Below, one piece after another: positions 1,812 to 59,452 of a DNA stretch of 64,000 bases. The first letter of the stretch is position 1. Every line of letters begins with the position of its first letter. The notes below the pieces were generated by a model. That model did no database searches. It was not told the origin of the DNA and saw nothing but the letters and a program-made list of their open reading frames with translations. The position numbers were made by a program, and so were the translations under genes. Source of the stretch: Mucilaginibacter sp. L196 (GTDB lineage Bacteria; Bacteroidota; Bacteroidia; Sphingobacteriales; Sphingobacteriaceae); contig NZ_LMUO01000009.1 of assembly GCF_009765905.1 (NCBI RefSeq), positions 34,800 through 98,799 on the forward strand, given 5' to 3'.

Positions 1812-3803
1812 ATGAGCATTTTAAAATCCGGAGTAGCAGGCGTTATGGTATTTATGGCGCTTACATCCATTACATTAGCACAAACCACTATCAAGCCAGA
1901 AAAATATCCTGTTTATAATGGGGAGTTGGGTGTTAAATACTCAGCTAAAAAGACTGTATTTAAAGTTTGGGCGCCGAAAGCTTCGGTTGTAAAACTGCGT
2001 TTGTATGATGCCGGCGAAGGTGGATCGCCCGTAAAAGAAATCGATCTGGTTAAAAAAAGCGGAGGCAGCTGGCAAACGGTTATCAACCATAATGTCAAAA
2101 ATAAATACTATACCTTCCAGGTGATGCAGGATGATAAATGGTTGTTAGAGGCGCCTGATATTTACGCGAAAGCAGTAGGCGTAAACGGTCATCGTGGTAT
2201 GGTGGTTGATTTAAAAGCAACTGACCCTACAGGTTGGAATAAGGACAAAAGCCCTAAGCTTAAAAAACTAACAGATGCGGTTATCTACGAGCTACATATC
2301 CGCGATATTTCCATCGATCCAAATTCAGGAATAAAAAATAAAGGCAAATTTTTAGGGTTAACCGAAACCAATACCAAAAGTCCGGATGGCCAATCAACAG
2401 GATTGGCTCATTTAAAAGAATTGGGTATTACGCATGTACACATATTACCCGCTTTTGATTTTAACTCGATAGACGAAACCAAGCCTAATGAAAAGCAATA
2501 CAATTGGGGCTATGATCCGCTAAACTATAATGTACCCGAAGGTAGTTATTCGACCAATCCGTACGATGGTAATGTAAGGATAAAAGAATTTAAGGAGATG
2601 GTGCAAGCCCTGCACGCTAACGGATTACGGGTGATATTGGATGTGGTTTATAACCATACAGCTGATATTGATCATTCTAACTTTACACAATTCGCACCGG
2701 GGTATTTCTACCGTCACAATCCCGATGGTAGTTACTCTAATGGGACAGGATGTGGAAACGAAACCGCATCAGAGCAGCCGATGATGCGCAAGTTTATGAT
2801 GGAGTCGGTATTATACTGGGCCCGTGAATATCATATAGATGGCTTCCGGTTTGATTTAATGGGGATACATGATATTAAAACCATGAATGCGATTAGCGAT
2901 ACATTGCACGCCATTAACTCAAGTATTGTAATTTATGGTGAAGGATGGACAGCAGGGGAAAGCCCTTATCCTGAAGATAAACGGGCTGTTAAAAAGAACG
3001 TATTGAAATTGCATGAGGTAGCTGCTTTCAGCGATGATATTCGCGATGGGTTAAAAGGTGGTTTTAGCAATGTAAAAGCTAAAGGCTTTGTAAGCGGCGA
3101 TCAAAACTCAAAGATGAGCGTGATGTTTGGAGTTGTGGCATCGGTGCAGCACCCGCAGATAGATTACAGTAAAGTTGATGATTCCAAAGCTCCATGGGCA
3201 AAGCAACCTTATGGTACGATAACCTATGCTTCCTGTCATGATGATAATACGTTATTTGATCGCTTGAAGATTGAAAACCCGGATGCATCAGAAGCTGACC
3301 TGATCAAGATGGATAAGCTGGCCAACGCGATTGTACTTACCTCGCAAGGGATCTCATTTTTGCATTCAGGGGCGGAGTTGTTGCGTACTAAACAAGGGGT
3401 AGCAAATTCATTCAACTCGCCCGATAATATCAATGAAATAGACTGGAGCCGCAAAACAAAGTATGCCGACGTATTTAACTACTATAAGCAAATGATCGCT
3501 TTGCGTAAAGATCATCCTGCATTCAGGATGCCAACTGCCGGAATGATCCGCAGGCATTTGAATTTTATCGAAACTGGTGACCCATCAACCATAGCCTATC
3601 AATTAACCGACAACGCCAATGGCGATAAATGGAAAACGATATTAGTAGTATTGAATGGCAGCAAGGATGCAAAAACTGTTAACATCCCGGCTGGTAACTG
3701 GACTTTGGTAAGTGATGGCAATAAGGTAGACGATGCTGGCAAACTGGTGAGCGGTTCATCAGTTATTATTCCAGGTATTACCGCTTATATTTTGCATGAT
3801 TAA
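1812..3803 (+). CDS. pulA: Secreted type I pullulanase (GH13)
   Basis: Debranching enzyme that hydrolyses alpha-1,6 bonds in pullulan and branched maltooligosaccharides, 663 residues. A signal peptide ending near Ala23 (SITLAQ) is followed by a CBM48-like domain (about residues 35-120, FKVWAPKA), then a GH13 barrel. Visible motifs are YNWGYDPLNY near residue 230, which is the type I pullulanase signature; GFRFDLMG with nucleophile Asp348; GEGW with acid/base Glu377; and SCHDDN around residue 476. A small all-beta C-terminal domain follows. It sits alone, not in a Sus-type locus. Export is to the periplasm or, if lipidated elsewhere, the surface; I see no lipobox or type IX signal. Confidence 0.92.
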   Translation: MSILKSGVAGVMVFMALTSITLAQTTIKPEKYPVYNGELGVKYSAKKTVFKVWAPKASVVKLRLYDAGEGGSPVKEIDLVKKSGGSWQTVINHNVKNKYYTFQVMQDDKWLLEAPDIYAKAVGVNGHRGMVVDLKATDPTGWNKDKSPKLKKLTDAVIYELHIRDISIDPNSGIKNKGKFLGLTETNTKSPDGQSTGLAHLKELGITHVHILPAFDFNSIDETKPNEKQYNWGYDPLNYNVPEGSYSTNPYDGNVRIKEFKEMVQALHANGLRVILDVVYNHTADIDHSNFTQFAPGYFYRHNPDGSYSNGTGCGNETASEQPMMRKFMMESVLYWAREYHIDGFRFDLMGIHDIKTMNAISDTLHAINSSIVIYGEGWTAGESPYPEDKRAVKKNVLKLHEVAAFSDDIRDGLKGGFSNVKAKGFVSGDQNSKMSVMFGVVASVQHPQIDYSKVDDSKAPWAKQPYGTITYASCHDDNTLFDRLKIENPDASEADLIKMDKLANAIVLTSQGISFLHSGAELLRTKQGVANSFNSPDNINEIDWSRKTKYADVFNYYKQMIALRKDHPAFRMPTAGMIRRHLNFIETGDPSTIAYQLTDNANGDKWKTILVVLNGSKDAKTVNIPAGNWTLVSDGNKVDDAGKLVSGSSVIIPGITAYILHD

Positions 3804-3862
3804 TTGAAAACGATGATATAAAACATTACCGTTTCTTTACTTTCTATATAAATATTATTAAA

Positions 3863-3870
3863 TACCTTTG
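3863..3870 (+). promoter_or_regulatory. Bacteroidota -7 promoter core TACCTTTG
   Basis: Exact TAnnTTTG match 26 bp upstream of the MFS start codon at 3897, inside the AT-rich gap after the pullulanase gene. Confidence 0.5.
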
Positions 3871-3896
3871 CAAAGTGTACTTGTTACACTTAGTAG

Positions 3897-5063
3897 ATGG
3901 AAGATATAATAACACATAACATAATAGAAGTTCAATATAAAAGATCGAAACTTACCCTAAGGTTGGTTGTTGGTGTAATGTTTTTCCTTGCAGGATTATG
4001 TTTCGCCAGCTGGGCATCGCGTATTGTTACGGTACAACAAACAATGGGCATGTCTGATGCAGGCCTGGGCGCCGTGTTGTTCTCGCTTCCGGTTGGGTTA
4101 ATGTGTTCCTTGCCGTTTTCCGGTTGGATCATTACCATTATCGGCAGTAAAAGATTGCTCATCATAGCACTTGTTGTATATAGCCTTGCATTAATCAGCT
4201 TAAGCCTGGCGCAAAATGTAGTGCAGCTAATAGGTTGTTTAATATGTTTTGGTTTTGCAAGTAATACGGTAAATATCGCTGTTAATACCCAGGCAGTTGC
4301 TTCCGAAGTTATGTATAAAAAGCCTATCATGGCATCCTTTCATGGTTTGTGGAGTTTAGCCGGTTTTACAGGTGCGGGCATTGGTACATTTATGATAGCT
4401 AACGGAATTGTGCCGCTGCATCACTTTATATTGATAACCGGGATTGTGATAGTGACGATCATTTTAACTGCCAAATACCTTAAAGATGATAAAGTAACCA
4501 ATAGTGGCCCGGTATTCGTAATGCCTGATAAATCGTTAATCACGCTGGGTATAATCGCTATGTGTTCCATGATTTGTGAGGGGGCTATGTTTGATTGGAG
4601 TGTTATCTATTTTAAAAAGGTGGTATTAGCCCCAACAGCTTTGGTAGGTATAGGTTTCACCGCATTTATGTGTACCATGGCCGGTGGTCGCTTTATTGCT
4701 GATTGGTTTGCCCACCGTTACGGTTTGAGGCGTATTTTACAAACCAGTGGTACATTAACCGTTACGGGTTTATTAATTGCTGTTATATTCCCCTATTTTT
4801 ATACAGCCATGGCTGGTTTTTTATTGGTGGGAGCGGGTGTTTCGTCAGTAGTACCCATGGTGTATAGCGCTGCAGGAAGGTCAAAAACTATGACTCCTGG
4901 TGTGGCTTTAGCAGCGGTATCAACTATAGGGTTCATCGGGTTTCTGTTTGGCCCGCCAATAATTGGGTTTATTGCGGGTTTAGCTACGCTAAGGGCATCA
5001 TTTGTATTTATTGCTTTTATGGGCACTTGCGTAGTTGTTTTATCAACCAAAGCCAAATTGTAA
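3897..5063 (+). CDS. MFS transporter, YbjJ-like
   Basis: Inner membrane carrier of the major facilitator superfamily, 388 residues with about 12 hydrophobic helices. The N-terminal helix (FFLAGLCFASWASRI) and the first cytoplasmic loop after helix 2 are typical of the YbjJ/FucP-like subgroup, and a second-half signature AGGRFIADWFAHRYGLRR is present. The substrate is unknown; sugar or drug efflux would both be compatible with the subgroup. Its stop codon directly abuts the stop codon of the opposite-strand gene that follows, leaving no room for a separate terminator. Confidence 0.85.
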   Translation: MEDIITHNIIEVQYKRSKLTLRLVVGVMFFLAGLCFASWASRIVTVQQTMGMSDAGLGAVLFSLPVGLMCSLPFSGWIITIIGSKRLLIIALVVYSLALISLSLAQNVVQLIGCLICFGFASNTVNIAVNTQAVASEVMYKKPIMASFHGLWSLAGFTGAGIGTFMIANGIVPLHHFILITGIVIVTIILTAKYLKDDKVTNSGPVFVMPDKSLITLGIIAMCSMICEGAMFDWSVIYFKKVVLAPTALVGIGFTAFMCTMAGGRFIADWFAHRYGLRRILQTSGTLTVTGLLIAVIFPYFYTAMAGFLLVGAGVSSVVPMVYSAAGRSKTMTPGVALAAVSTIGFIGFLFGPPIIGFIAGLATLRASFVFIAFMGTCVVVLSTKAKL

Positions 5064-5333
5064 CTATTCCTTGTCTAAATCGTCCTCGTCGGGGTTTAGC
5101 AAATACTCAAATTGCTCGTGCCCGTTGTGGAATATAAACTTTATACGCTGTTTACCTTCTTCTATATCTAAAGACATGGCCCCAAGCGCGGTTGGTATAT
5201 TATCCCTGATCAATTTAATGTCGGTTATGTTGGGCATCTCAATAAATATATCATCACCCTGTGGGCTGATTTTCCAACCCTGTAAATGAGCATGATTCAG
5301 GGTGTCGATCCATTTTTGCTGATAAAAATTCAT
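5064..5333 (-). CDS. Conserved-looking small acidic protein of unknown function
   Basis: 89 residues, cytoplasmic, no membrane segment or signal. The C-terminus is strongly acidic (PDEDDLDKE). I recognise no domain. It is convergent with the MFS gene and the two reading frames touch at 5063/5064 without overlap. The codon use looks like its neighbours and there is no competing sense frame, so I take it as real. Confidence 0.65.
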   Translation of the reverse strand: MNFYQQKWIDTLNHAHLQGWKISPQGDDIFIEMPNITDIKLIRDNIPTALGAMSLDIEEGKQRIKFIFHNGHEQFEYLLNPDEDDLDKE

Positions 5334-55912: not shown

Positions 55913-57495
55913 CAGGGTCTTCTGAAAGTTTAAGTTAACCCATAAAATCACGGGCTGTTATTAGCGTATTTGTAGCCGATCATTAAGGACCGAAAAAAGG
56001 CATAGCCTTTCCAAAGTTTAAGTTAACCCATAAAATAAAAAAGTTATCTTAGTGTCCCTAATGGGGATATTTGAAGAATCAAGGTGTATAACTTTACAGA
56101 TTCAGGGAATTCAATTCGGCCATTTGGACAGAAAAGACCGATATAACAAGGTGATTTCGGTAATAAACACATCTAACGCATCGTTAAGTTTTCCCGATCT
56201 TTTCAAGAATCAACACCAATTAAAAGGTTTTTACCGGTTAATGAATAATAAATCAGTGCATCATTCCACCTTTATTTCAGGGTATCAAACAGGTTTGATC
56301 GCTTATTCGAAAGAGCAAAGCATTGATGATCCCTGGATATTGGTGCAAGATACGATGCTGACCGATTATAATAGCCGGAACCTCGACTTAGGCTATACAC
56401 AAACCGAGCGGTCAAACGGCTTTTTACTACACCACGGCCTATTATTGGATGAGAACTATCTGCCTTTAGGGCTGCTGCATCAACAGATCATTCATCGCGA
56501 ACGAAGTGATTTCGGGAAGGCTTCAAAGTGGAAAAGTAAACCAACTGCTGAGAAAGAGTCAAATAAATGGCTGGAAGGCATAGAAACGGGTATCCGTTTT
56601 AGTAAAGAAACGGGGCGTGGATTGATCCATGTAATGGATCGTGAAGCGGATATTATAGATGTGATCAATAAATGTGTCGAGACAGACCAATACTTTATCA
56701 TTAGAGCAAGGCATGACCGTAGTATCTTAACCACTTCGCAAAAAGATAAAGCTGAGAGCCCTGAATTGTTCAGGATGTTCAGCCTTATGCCATCGTTGGC
56801 CGATTCAATTACCATTAACAGGACGTTAAGAAATGAGAAAGGAAGGGAATACAGAGCTGAATGCGATATGAGCTATCACTCCTTTAAGTTCAGAGGTATT
56901 AATGAACCTATAAATTGTGTATGGATCAGGGAACGGGGTTGCCCGGAAGGTACTCGTCCGGCAGAGTGGTTTTTACTCACCAACAAAGAAATTAGTAATA
57001 AGGCGGATGCAGAAAAAGTACCCGAGATATATTCGAGGCGTTGGACGGTTGAAGACTTTCACAAATGCTATAAAACGGGGTGCAGCATTGAAAAACGGCA
57101 GTTCAACTCTCGTAAATCACTGCTTACCGGCATCGGTTTATTGGCAATAACGGCTGTTGTTCTACTAAGAAGCAGGTATATTTCAAAACTGGAACATCAT
57201 ACACCCTTCGAAATAATTGTAACAGATAAACACGAGCAAGCGTTAGCGAAAACACTTGCAGATAAATACCTGATGCCAATTGACAGACAATTATGCGAAC
57301 CCTATTCTGTACTTTGGTGGGTGTTATTATTAGGTCGGATGGGTGGGCATCAGGGCTACAAAAGCAAAGGGCTACCCGGCTGGCAAATACTTTGGAAAGG
57401 CTATTCCTTCTTTCAAACCATTGCTATCGGTTACAAACACGCGAATAACAGCCCTTGATTTTGTGGGTTAACTTAAATTCCAAAGAGACCCTGCG
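55911..57495 (+). mobile_element. IS4-family insertion sequence with ~63 bp inverted ends
   Basis: Left segment 55911-55973 (CGCAGGGTCTTCTGAAAG.., GGGCTGTTATTAGCGTATTT) matches the complement of 57432-57495 at about 80 percent, including the transposase 3' end. A further copy of TTTAAGTTAACCCATAAAAT lies at 56011-56030, immediately before the transposase gene. Either the IS spans 55911-57495, or the true left end is the inner copy and the outer part is a fragment of another IS copy in reverse orientation. No target duplication is certain. Confidence 0.75.
56061..57458 (+). CDS. IS4-family DDE transposase
   Basis: 465 residues from ATG 56061 (a GTG lies three codons earlier). DDE core: D97 in VQDTMLTDYN, D193 in VMDREADIID and Glu331 within the IS4 YREK signature (Y324, R327, E331, K338; YSRRWTVEDFHKCYK). 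The N-terminal part resembles the DNA-binding domain of Tn5-like transposases. The frame is intact, so the element may be active. The 3' end overlaps the right inverted repeat. Confidence 0.92.
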   Translation: MGIFEESRCITLQIQGIQFGHLDRKDRYNKVISVINTSNASLSFPDLFKNQHQLKGFYRLMNNKSVHHSTFISGYQTGLIAYSKEQSIDDPWILVQDTMLTDYNSRNLDLGYTQTERSNGFLLHHGLLLDENYLPLGLLHQQIIHRERSDFGKASKWKSKPTAEKESNKWLEGIETGIRFSKETGRGLIHVMDREADIIDVINKCVETDQYFIIRARHDRSILTTSQKDKAESPELFRMFSLMPSLADSITINRTLRNEKGREYRAECDMSYHSFKFRGINEPINCVWIRERGCPEGTRPAEWFLLTNKEISNKADAEKVPEIYSRRWTVEDFHKCYKTGCSIEKRQFNSRKSLLTGIGLLAITAVVLLRSRYISKLEHHTPFEIIVTDKHEQALAKTLADKYLMPIDRQLCEPYSVLWWVLLLGRMGGHQGYKSKGLPGWQILWKGYSFFQTIAIGYKHANNSP

Positions 57496-57504
57496 AAAAC
57501 AAAT

Positions 57505-58218
57505 CTAATACTCCAAAATATCCCAATGCTGTTTATTCTTCAACGGGTTAGTATATTTTAGCTTTTCCGAGCCATCTTTCCAGCCTTTGTAGCGGTTACC
57601 GTGTGTTAGTTTGCTCAGTCGGCTATATAAATGGTAGTTAGTCATATGGTTATCGATCCAGGCTAATTGTTGCTCCAAAACGGCATCACCAATTTTTATG
57701 GTATCAATAATATGTGGCAACACGGCAATTTTAAACAAGTTCGGTTCTGCAAATTGGTAACGGTAGTCCATAGCATAAAGCTGGTCGTTCCAAAATTCAA
57801 CACGCTCAAAACAGGTGCGCTGCTCTTCGCTTAGTTGGTGCCTGTTATTATCCCAATCATTACGGTAAATACTGTTTAAATAAGGCATAGCCTCATAATT
57901 AAACCGCTGCCATTGTCTGCGCTTAGGCTTTTTAAACGTTCTGTCGTAATGATACTGTACCGTGGTAATTCTATCCAGTATGTGCTGATAAAAATCGGCT
58001 TTACTGCTTTTTTGCACTTCCGGTTTCAGCACAAATAAGCGCTTCCAGCCTTTTTGGTAGGGTTCATCTAAAGGTATTACAGTAAGGAACTCCGGATCTT
58101 TTGATATACGTTCCCGCTCCCTGTGTAATTTTAATAATTGTTTATCACGGTCTTCTTTCTGAAGGCGTTTTTTTCTTCGTGCCGATTTTAAGCGATACGG
58201 TAAATTTTGTGTGTCCAT
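57505..58218 (-). CDS. Basic protein of unknown function next to the Y RNA locus
   Basis: 237 residues. The first 45 residues are very basic and helical (SARRKKRLQKEDRDKQLLKLHRER), compatible with nucleic-acid binding; the rest is rich in aromatic and charged residues (RRQWQRFNYEAMPYL, WNDQLYAMDYRYQF) and ends in KNKQHWDILEY. No signal peptide or membrane helix. Unrecognised family. Its stop codon is about 10 bp from the right IS end, so the insertion just missed its 3' end. Its position near the Y-RNA-like array raises the possibility of an RNA role; this is only inference from proximity. Confidence 0.7.
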   Translation of the reverse strand: MDTQNLPYRLKSARRKKRLQKEDRDKQLLKLHRERERISKDPEFLTVIPLDEPYQKGWKRLFVLKPEVQKSSKADFYQHILDRITTVQYHYDRTFKKPKRRQWQRFNYEAMPYLNSIYRNDWDNNRHQLSEEQRTCFERVEFWNDQLYAMDYRYQFAEPNLFKIAVLPHIIDTIKIGDAVLEQQLAWIDNHMTNYHLYSRLSKLTHGNRYKGWKDGSEKLKYTNPLKNKQHWDILEY

Positions 58219-58438
58219 CGGGACTTCTGCATAAATTTTTCATAAAAATTGTTGATTGAAAAATTCATCCGCCTTTGGCAGATATATCCCTTTTTGGAAC
58301 ACAAAAAAGCAGGGCCATAAATGGCTGGTGCAATAACAGAAAATTTTAGAATAGAAATCTGTTCCGCCTTTATAAGACAGTGTGCGAAGAGATTATATGC
58401 AGATAAACGTAGTTTTCATTTCCGTGGAATTAGGTCAA
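58219..58438. other. Non-coding stretch before the Ro-like remnant
   Basis: 220 bp between the basic protein gene and the palindrome. I see no gene or recognisable Ro60 coding sequence here. Confidence 0.4.
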
Positions 58439-58478
58439 AGATGGAATTATTTTTAAATAATTAAAAATAATTCCATCT
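58439..58478. repeat. Perfect 16 bp palindrome at the truncation point of the Ro-like gene
   Basis: AGATGGAATTATTTTT, 8 nt spacer, and its exact complement. The recognisable protein similarity of the following remnant starts directly after it. Confidence 0.85.
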
Positions 58479-58646
58479 GCGCAAATACACTGCGTAGCCC
58501 TGAAGGGCTACGGACAAGCACCAATGCAATTATTGCGCAACGACGTTTACCTGGTAGCAGGCTGGAGCGATAAAGTTTTCGAGGTGTTAGCAGCCTTAGA
58601 AAATGGAGCTTCGGCACTGGATGCCATAAACGAAATAGAACTATAA
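58461..58646 (+). pseudogene. C-terminal remnant of a probable Ro60 (TROVE/vWA) protein
   Basis: Open frame with recognisable sequence from Ala at 58479: IHCVALKGYGQAPMQ, then VYLVAGWSDKVFEVLAALE and SALDAINEIEL to the TAA at 58644-58646. The strand GYG..VYLVAGWSDKVF and terminal helix look like the end of the vWA half of bacterial Ro60 proteins; I recall this pattern but could not search it. Upstream nothing of the TROVE domain is left in the window, and a stop lies at 58458-58460. It is followed by a terminator hairpin and the Y-RNA-like array. ATG 58524 could give a 40-residue product. Confidence 0.55.
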
Positions 58647-58648
58647 CC

Positions 58649-58682
58649 AAGTATGGGTAAGCTAAACATCCCCATACTTTTA
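58649..58682 (+). terminator. Terminator after the Ro-like remnant
   Basis: AAGTATGGG, loop TAAGCTAAACATC, CCCATACTTTTA. Nine-bp stem and T-run right after the stop codon, separating the remnant from the RNA array. Confidence 0.75.
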
Positions 58683-58697
58683 AAAAGGAATTAAAAT

Positions 58698-58821
58698 ATA
58701 AGGATGCCGTAGAAACGGGTTACTTCGCACCGCTCAGGGGGGGGCAGTGTGGTGCAAGCCATGCTGAGGGTTCGAGTCCCTAAGGCGTTCCCCCGTCCCG
58801 CATTCGCCCGTTGCTCCTTAT
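58698..58821 (+). ncRNA. Y-RNA-like RNA, unit A (with T-arm-like loop)
   Basis: Begins ATAAGGATGCCGTAGAAACGG; 3' part CCCGTTGCTCCTTAT. Lower stem ATAAGGA/TCCTTAT, upper stem AACGGG/CCCGTT, with the conserved GATGCCGTAG segment unpaired or bulged opposite GTTGC, as in Ro-binding helices of Y RNAs. The shared TACTTCG follows. The large loop contains AGGGTTCGAGTCCCT, a T-arm with a canonical TTCGAGT loop, and a D/acceptor-like GGCAGTGTGGTGCAAGCC region. First of six tandem units; sits directly after the terminator of the Ro-like remnant. Confidence 0.7.
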
Positions 58822-58827
58822 AAAAAC

Positions 58828-58932
58828 ATGAAAGGAGGTGTCGTAAATAAGTCTTACTTCGCTTTGGATCCGTTGTCGGGGCTTGCTTACGGACGGACAT
58901 GAATGGCTTATTGCCTTTTACCCTTCTTTTTA
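58828..58932 (+). ncRNA. Y-RNA-like RNA, unit B
   Basis: Conserved core GGTGTCGTAAATAAGTC with TACTTCG; the upper stem AATAAGTC pairs with GGCTTATT (one G-T pair) at 58905-58912. The 3' end runs TTTTACCCTTCTTTTT. The loop has a TCCGT/ACGGA hairpin but no T-loop signature. It overlaps no protein gene. Confidence 0.65.
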
Positions 58933-58947
58933 AAGAAATTAAAACAT

Positions 58948-59082
58948 AAAAAGGTGTCGTAAATAAGTGTTACTTCGATATCCAACCCTGCGGTCGTCGG
59001 TTCGAGTCCGGCCCTTTTACAAAAGGTAGCTCAGATGGTTAGAGCACAGTAGACAGTCACTTATTGATTTTTACCCTTTTTT
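58948..59082 (+). ncRNA. Y-RNA-like RNA, unit C, with permuted tRNA-like domain
   Basis: Lower stem AAAAAGG (58948-58954) with CCTTTTT (59075-59081), upper stem AATAAGTG (58962-58969) with CACTTATT (59058-59065), conserved GTCGTAA between. The loop holds tRNA elements in permuted order: T arm GTCGG TTCGAGT CCGGC (58996-59012), acceptor-like CCTTTT..AAAAGG (59013-59026) closed by AC, then a canonical D arm GCTCAGATGGTTAGAGC (59029-59045). The Y stem replaces the anticodon arm, which is the layout known for YrlA RNAs. Best preserved unit. Confidence 0.8.
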
Positions 59083-59090
59083 AAGAAATT

Positions 59091-59157
59091 AAGAAGATGC
59101 CGTAAGTAAGCGTTACTTCAACCTGCCACGTTTAACACGCTTACCGGATTATCTAAA
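59091..59157 (+). ncRNA. Y-RNA-like RNA, unit D, minimal
   Basis: Core GATGCCGTAAGTAAGCGT and TACTTC; upper stem GTAAGCGT pairs with ACGCTTAC (8 bp), lower stem AGAT with ATCT. The loop is only about 20 nt (TACTTCAACCTGCCACGTTT), without tRNA-like parts. Possibly a bare Ro-binding Y RNA. Total about 65 nt. Confidence 0.65.
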
Positions 59158-59170
59158 AATACCTAAACCT

Positions 59171-59301
59171 AAAAGGTGCCGTAAACAGGTGATACTTCGG
59201 TATAACGTCCGCCCAATGGCGGAAGCTGCAGATTCGAGTTCTGCCTGCAATTTATTGCAGTGGTCAAAATTATAATCACCAGTTGCTTTTTGCCCTTTTT
59301 T
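59171..59301 (+). ncRNA. Y-RNA-like RNA, unit E, with tRNA-like loop
   Basis: Lower stem AAAAGG (59171-59176) with CCTTTT, upper stem GGTGAT (59188-59193) with ATCACC (59275-59280), conserved TGCCGTAAAC between, TACTTCGG next. The loop contains CCGCCAATGGCGG, a T arm GCAGA TTCGAGT TCTGC (59228-59244) and a stem CTGCAAT..ATTGCAG (59245-59260) in the acceptor position. The D-arm part is not clear. Confidence 0.72.
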
Positions 59302-59308
59302 AAAACAT

Positions 59309-59452
59309 AATGAAAGATGCCGTAAGTGTGTGATACTTCGCTGGTGAAACCGCATAAGCGGGCAGGTTCGAACAATTTCTTGAGCGGGTTCGTGTTTAGC
59401 CTGCGGGTGCGAAAAATCCTGAAAGACACACGCTGACTATTGCTCTTTCATT
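59309..59452 (+). ncRNA. Y-RNA-like RNA, unit F, with tRNA-like loop
   Basis: Lower stem AATGAAAG (59309-59316) with CTTTCATT (59445-59452), upper stem GTGTGT with ACACAC, conserved GATGCCGTAAGTG and TACTTCG. The loop has two TTCG loops, CAGGTTCGAAC and GCGGGTTCGTG..CCTGC, but the T arm is less regular than in C and E. Last unit before the large surface protein gene. Confidence 0.65.

Follow-up and report, generated by a model that had tools for sequence, protein, structure and literature searches.

A permuted tRNA mimic of the YrlA class in a Y RNA array orphaned from Ro in Mucilaginibacter sp. L196

Introduction

Within a window of 64,000 nucleotides from Mucilaginibacter sp. L196 (the whole stretch of DNA that was analysed), a segment of the forward strand at 58949–59078 reads like a tRNA whose arms occur in a rearranged order, and it is located in a genome that lacks the Ro gene by which such segments are accompanied in related bacteria. 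This raises the question whether the segment, here called unit C, belongs to the YrlA class of Y RNAs, for which the structure of the Salmonella representative is available (PDB 6CU1), and what its presence means in an organism without Ro.

YrlA carries a tRNA-like module with a permuted layout and is a substrate of DusA and TruB, and in Deinococcus the Y stem binds the Ro ring while the Y RNA tethers PNPase (PMC8394870). Salmonella YrlA has been proposed to act as a decoy for anticodon nucleases, and the RNA-repair operon of that organism uses the sigma-54 activator RtcR (PMC7790460). Both tRNA mimicry and recognition by modifying enzymes are already known for YrlA and are not new here; the new part is the genomic context, a Y array orphaned from Ro. 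No report of a Y RNA array outliving Ro in Mucilaginibacter was found, which is weak evidence in view of the limited literature search.

A permuted tRNA layout in unit C

A sequence-only reading had proposed that a Y stem encloses a T arm, followed by an acceptor-like hairpin and then a D arm, and all these elements were found. The 5' strand of the Y stem (58949–58970) is matched by a 3' strand at 59058–59078. Between them follow CTG (58988–58990), the equivalent of the 3' strand of an anticodon stem; CGGTC (58991–58995), the equivalent of a 5-nt variable loop; the T arm GTCGG-TTCGAGT-CCGGC (58996–59012); the acceptor-like hairpin CCTTTT-AC-AAAAGG (59013–59026); TA (59027–59028), which resembles U8/A9; the D arm GCTC-AGATGGTTA-GAGC (59029–59045); and, after a single A, CAG (59047–59049), which pairs with CTG as the 5' strand of the anticodon stem equivalent. 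Apart from the sequence itself, the T and D arms are indicated by the Rfam alignment and by covariation, and the CTG/CAG helix is the closing stem of the Rfam alignment. Since CTG/CAG, CGGTC and TA all have equivalents in tRNA, unit C is a tRNA of which the acceptor end is closed by a hairpin and the anticodon arm is opened into the Y stem. The permuted reading thus agrees with the layout of the Rfam YrlA model and with the published description of YrlA (PMC8394870). Only the proposed form of the acceptor-like element needs correction: the segments CCTTTT and AAAAGG are present, but six base pairs with a loop of two nucleotides cannot form because such a loop is impossible, and the hairpin folds with about 5 bp and a 4-nt loop.

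The Rfam YrlA model (RF02553) aligns to 58988–59051 with 41.6 bits (E 1.9e-7 in a search of 1.4 kb), which is below the gathering score of 69, a curated annotation cut-off rather than a defining structural feature. In an Rfam search of 20 related loci this score was reached in none, and sub-threshold YrlA matches were regular. Unit C is an unannotated new member of the known YrlA class, and every helix of its structure is maintained in homologues by compensatory changes. In an alignment of 23 homologous units with a consensus of 26 pairs, double-sided changes occur in 16 pairs, and 97.5% of the cells conform to the pairing of the named structure. The covariation score is 0.372 as compared to 0.165 in shuffles, none of 500 shuffles reaching it. 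When the structure was slid along the alignment the score was at most 0.098, a control that somewhat favours the structure since alignment and structure share source sequences; the Rfam match is independent of both. The T, acceptor and D helices have three double-change pairs each, which for the acceptor-like hairpin comprises all its consensus pairs. Loss of the D/T pairing in homologues, which would have spoken against the mimic, was looked for and is absent, these helices being kept by compensatory changes. The basal Y stem consists of two helices with 14 pairs that are more than 97% paired in the 23 units and show double changes, and the conserved motifs G-N-CGTA-A/G and ACTTC are kept in the Y stem of all units.

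The resemblance to tRNA is also recognized by ARAGORN, which calls a tRNA when the core of unit C is un-permuted and provided with an ordinary anticodon arm, taken from the window's own tRNA-Arg. None of 300 shuffles with the same arm was called a tRNA, nor was the core in its native order. Energy folding of unit C alone is unremarkable (z −0.39), and its centroid consists of exactly the T, acceptor-like and D hairpins; for single units such folding is uninformative for A to C (z 0.2 to −1.3) and better for D, E and F. The arm order of unit C is beyond chance.

The six-unit array

Unit C is part of an array of six different units on the forward strand, two of which are damaged. Unit A (58699–58818), with a Y stem and a T-arm-like hairpin, is orthologous to the first unit of most relatives. 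Unit B (58833–58925), which is without the tRNA-like module, matches the Y RNA model R1 with an E value of 1.7e-10 and resembles short units in two other loci (L015, L017). With the same model unit C scores 137 bits, including both strands of the Y stem. Unit D (59093–59153) is truncated and gives no R1 match: it has no 3' strand for the basal Y stem, whereas the D units of relatives end in TGCTCTT or similar. Unit E (59171–59297; R1 E 8.6e-11, folding z −2.8) possesses a T arm and an acceptor-like hairpin; its D arm is degenerate, as it also is in the E units of relatives. The T loop of unit F (59312–59447), which is 7 nt long in the F units of relatives that were compared, is broken by an insert of some 43 bp at about 59372–59415 (blastn gap 59371–59415). 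An automatic count, with the exceptions taken as scored, found the F unit of relatives intact in 21 of 22 cases and the D unit in 10 of 11. The other four units of this array (A, B, C and E) appear undamaged, and therefore either the loss happened recently or the array is still under some constraint.

A terminator-like hairpin (58649–58681, forward strand) separates the Ro remnant described below from the array, and is found at the same place, with paired changes, in many Mucilaginibacter loci; array expression may require read-through or a separate promoter. A near-match to the Bacteroidota −7 box (TACTTTTA, 58675) precedes unit A, and residual transcription of the array from this site is possible.

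Loss of the Ro gene

In relatives the Y arrays are close to the Ro60/Rsr gene, of which only the last 48 codons and the stop are left here (58500–58646, forward strand), with 94% amino acid identity to the C-terminus of M. rigui Ro. An intact Ro/TROVE protein, by which a functional Ro RNP would be recognized, was not found: a search with the TROVE profile gave no match in the genome, which is 100% complete, and the sole Ro match above noise (58464–58643) covers Ro residues 468–527 at this very place. A second Ro match in the genome is noise, with an E value of 0.2 over 43 residues. The 48 remaining codons contain no stop and show a slight excess of amino acid changes (5.2 versus 3.7 per pair), with synonymous change also raised.

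The break itself is demonstrated by DNA alignment to the Ro loci of relatives. Positions 58461–58497 align to about 3480–3516 of these loci, a region that lies some 84 to 48 bp ahead of the start codon of Ro (ATG at 3564), and the sequence from 58499–58501 onward aligns to positions from about 5000. At the junction (58498–58499) about 1.48 kb is thus missing, and this clean deletion has brought codon 480 of Ro directly behind the Ro operator; the promoter core, the ribosome binding site and codons 1–479 are gone, including a region behind the operator that resembles the Bacteroidota −7 box. The occurrence of CC on both ancestral sides of the junction suggests that the deletion arose through short homology. 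What is left of the promoter region is an operator-like inverted repeat, CTGCGCA-N7-TGCGTAG (58477–58497, forward strand), which matches the Ro promoter region of relatives and is found only once in the whole genome, at this fossil promoter (the reversed control gave 0). Directly before it there is a perfect A/T-rich inverted repeat (58439–58478). Rfam matches to K10 TLS and mir-302 near 58440 were dismissed as chance hits that stem from this simple repeat.

On the other side of the junction the ancestral order is preserved. A conserved gene of 237 amino acids (57505–58218, reverse strand), to which no function is assigned and for which no Pfam family was found, is the ancestral upstream neighbour of Ro, as indicated by synteny with loci L056 and L094. 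It shares 59% amino acid identity and 71% DNA identity (57520–58451) with the gene upstream of Ro in the former, and 45% amino acid identity with its counterpart in the latter. A transposase gene (56052–57458, Pfam DDE_Tnp_1) lies further away, and because this upstream neighbour is syntenic with L056 and stands between the element and the junction, an IS element is unlikely to be the cause of the deletion.

Partner genes and distribution in relatives

Two further components of the locus have been lost. Genes for the WYL-domain regulator and for RtcB are both absent from the complete genome, whereas both are present in all five relatives with a Ro locus that were tested, and in Pedobacter, Dyadobacter and a Sphingobacteriales MAG one or both, as identified by Pfam, adjoin Ro and the Y array. 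Genes for PNPase and TruB are present in the source genome. The inverted repeat CTGCGCA-N7-TGCGCAG is conserved before Ro in Mucilaginibacter (e.g. at about 3498 in L045), and in many Flavobacterium loci (L081–L116, at about 3543 and 5160) it stands before both Ro and the Y array. With the regulator gene located beside the repeat in L054, L069, L074 and L078, the WYL protein is likely to be its binder.

In Mucilaginibacter and other Bacteroidota, 1 to 10 Y units are usually found just downstream of the Ro60 (Rsr) gene, the motif count per locus being a rough guide only, and several units per locus are of the YrlA type. Nearly all of 80 named loci that were kept across the Bacteroidota consist of a full or near-full Ro gene followed by Y units; a few MAG loci, from the rumen or Prevotella group, lack motif hits behind Ro. 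One MAG, NGEE_A_bin6 (L080/L132, G166 second copy), has two loci with Ro and a Y array, one of the Ro sequences having ends that do not align to the query.

The association is also strong within the genus. In a first sample of 68 genomes, Ro (TROVE) was found in 29, which do not include the source genome; one of the 29 (G052) is spurious, and its weak match was dropped as it concerns an unrelated region with, by eye, a purL-like gene. Among 150 genomes of the genus, the Y model has matches in 54 and Ro in 58, and 50 combine a long Ro match with Y (Fisher p 8e-34, shared ancestry not corrected for). Ro without Y occurs once (G040), where Ro is cut by a contig end. The four Y-positive genomes without full Ro are the source genome, G128, G149 and G174, the last of which has a lone F-type unit in a 76% complete genome. 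The Y matches of G149, as well as one in G128, were rejected as tandem tRNA junctions. The tRNA-Pro/tRNA-Ile junctions in L138 (263–417) and L139 (271–421) have their arms in the T-acceptor-acceptor-D order that is also seen in the Y RNA module, which hints at a possible origin of such modules.

In G128, Y RNAs have independently been left without Ro: at this locus (L125, about 3250–5160) Ro codons 172–472 have been lost with a frame change, the promoter, WYL and RtcB are kept, and the Y array looks intact. Five other genomes (G007, G039, G143, G180 and G160; L126–L130) have nothing left of Ro but N-terminal scraps and lack a convincing Y array, which appears from their sequences to represent repeated loss of the locus; in G007 the scrap (L126) ends near a contig end, and the array may merely be missing from the assembly.

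Comparison with known systems

Unit C shares with YrlA a Y stem, the same succession of T arm, acceptor hairpin and D arm, and a helix equivalent to the anticodon stem that closes the module; it differs in that the Rfam model leaves its Y stem unmatched, that the cut-off is not reached, and that it is part of an array of six different units in a genome without a Ro gene. The Deinococcus radiodurans Y RNA (RF01053) gives a weak full-length match to unit A (21.7 bits, E 0.5), in which the 5' Y strand is followed by the TTACTTC segment and a T-arm-like hairpin is present, but this is far under the cut-off of 80 and should be taken as similarity only. The combination of RtcB, Ro and Y RNAs in relatives of the source genome is reminiscent of the Salmonella rsr-yrlBA-rtcBA operon, with the difference that the Bacteroidota loci have a WYL-domain regulator and the CTGCGCA-N7-TGCGCAG operator where Salmonella has RtcR. 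The tRNA-like domain of tmRNA is another bacterial RNA structure that mimics tRNA, but the Rfam match is only 8.3 bits and concerns the T arm alone, and neither a reading frame nor a context of the SmpB type was seen near unit C.

Origin and present state of the array

We consider it quite probable that unit C is a YrlA-class Y RNA in the relic array of a lost Ro/RtcB RNA-repair locus that is in early decay. By analogy with Deinococcus, we infer that in intact relatives the Y stem would bind the Ro ring, and that the tRNA-like module would reach an effector such as PNPase. In strain L196 a single deletion has joined the Ro operator to the end of the gene, the WYL regulator and RtcB are missing as well, and the array would have started to decay, with units D and F damaged and unit C still intact. 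It is because of this fusion and these losses that the array is regarded as a relic, which has presumably lost its transcription and function; an unexpressed or residual state is the likeliest. Expression of this copy of unit C and its modification by tRNA enzymes are doubtful, since this genome lacks Ro, WYL, RtcB and the Ro promoter core, and damage is seen in two of the sibling units.

That the arm order arose by accident from two decayed tRNA genes lying side by side, a 3' half followed by a 5' half, could be proposed in view of the R1 matches to tRNA-Pro/tRNA-Ile junctions in two genomes (31–40 bits). However, the much higher score of unit C, which includes both Y-stem strands, the absence of anticodon halves from its flanks, the recurrence of Y units behind Ro in many species and the covarying Y stem, which contradicts such an origin, leave this explanation practically no chance. 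It is also highly improbable that unit C has as its partner some divergent or distant substitute for Ro, encoded at another place in the genome, which would make the array an active Ro RNP gene set. Although the G-N-CGTA and ACTTC motifs of the Y stem are kept in all units, the genome is devoid of a TROVE match, the next Ro match is the one at noise level, and the Ro remnant is exactly at the ancestral place.

An orphan array that is still expressed and acts without Ro, for example as a decoy that anticodon nucleases attack or through binding of the tRNA-like module to PNPase or tRNA enzymes, is unlikely, even though four of the six units, including C, are intact, PNPase and TruB are present, and a decoy role has been put forward for Salmonella (PMC7790460). 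The intact array that G128 retains after Ro lost its middle points in the same direction, and it could mean that Y RNAs outlive Ro for a reason. Against this stand the deleted promoter core, the loss of the regulator and RtcB, the damage to units D and F, and the near-constant lack of a Y array in those members of the genus that have no Ro. The relic of a lost repair locus is therefore the preferred reading of the array.

Outlook

Behind Ro, the Bacteroidota harbour large arrays of diverse unannotated Y RNAs, with several tRNA-mimic units per locus, and the Rfam cut-off misses these arrays. The independent losses within the genus provide a graded natural experiment, ranging from intact loci, via G128, which lacks only Ro, and the source genome, which lacks Ro, the regulator and RtcB, to genomes with scraps of Ro and no array. 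A comparison of RNA across these strains could reveal any role that Y RNAs have independently of Ro, which is otherwise hard to reach beyond a few model species. We think it quite unlikely that transcription of the orphan Y RNAs continues and that their tRNA-like module suffices for an action without Ro, for example on PNPase or as a decoy of tRNA-cleaving enzymes, but if this were true, it would present a bacterial Y RNA that is selected independently of its protein.
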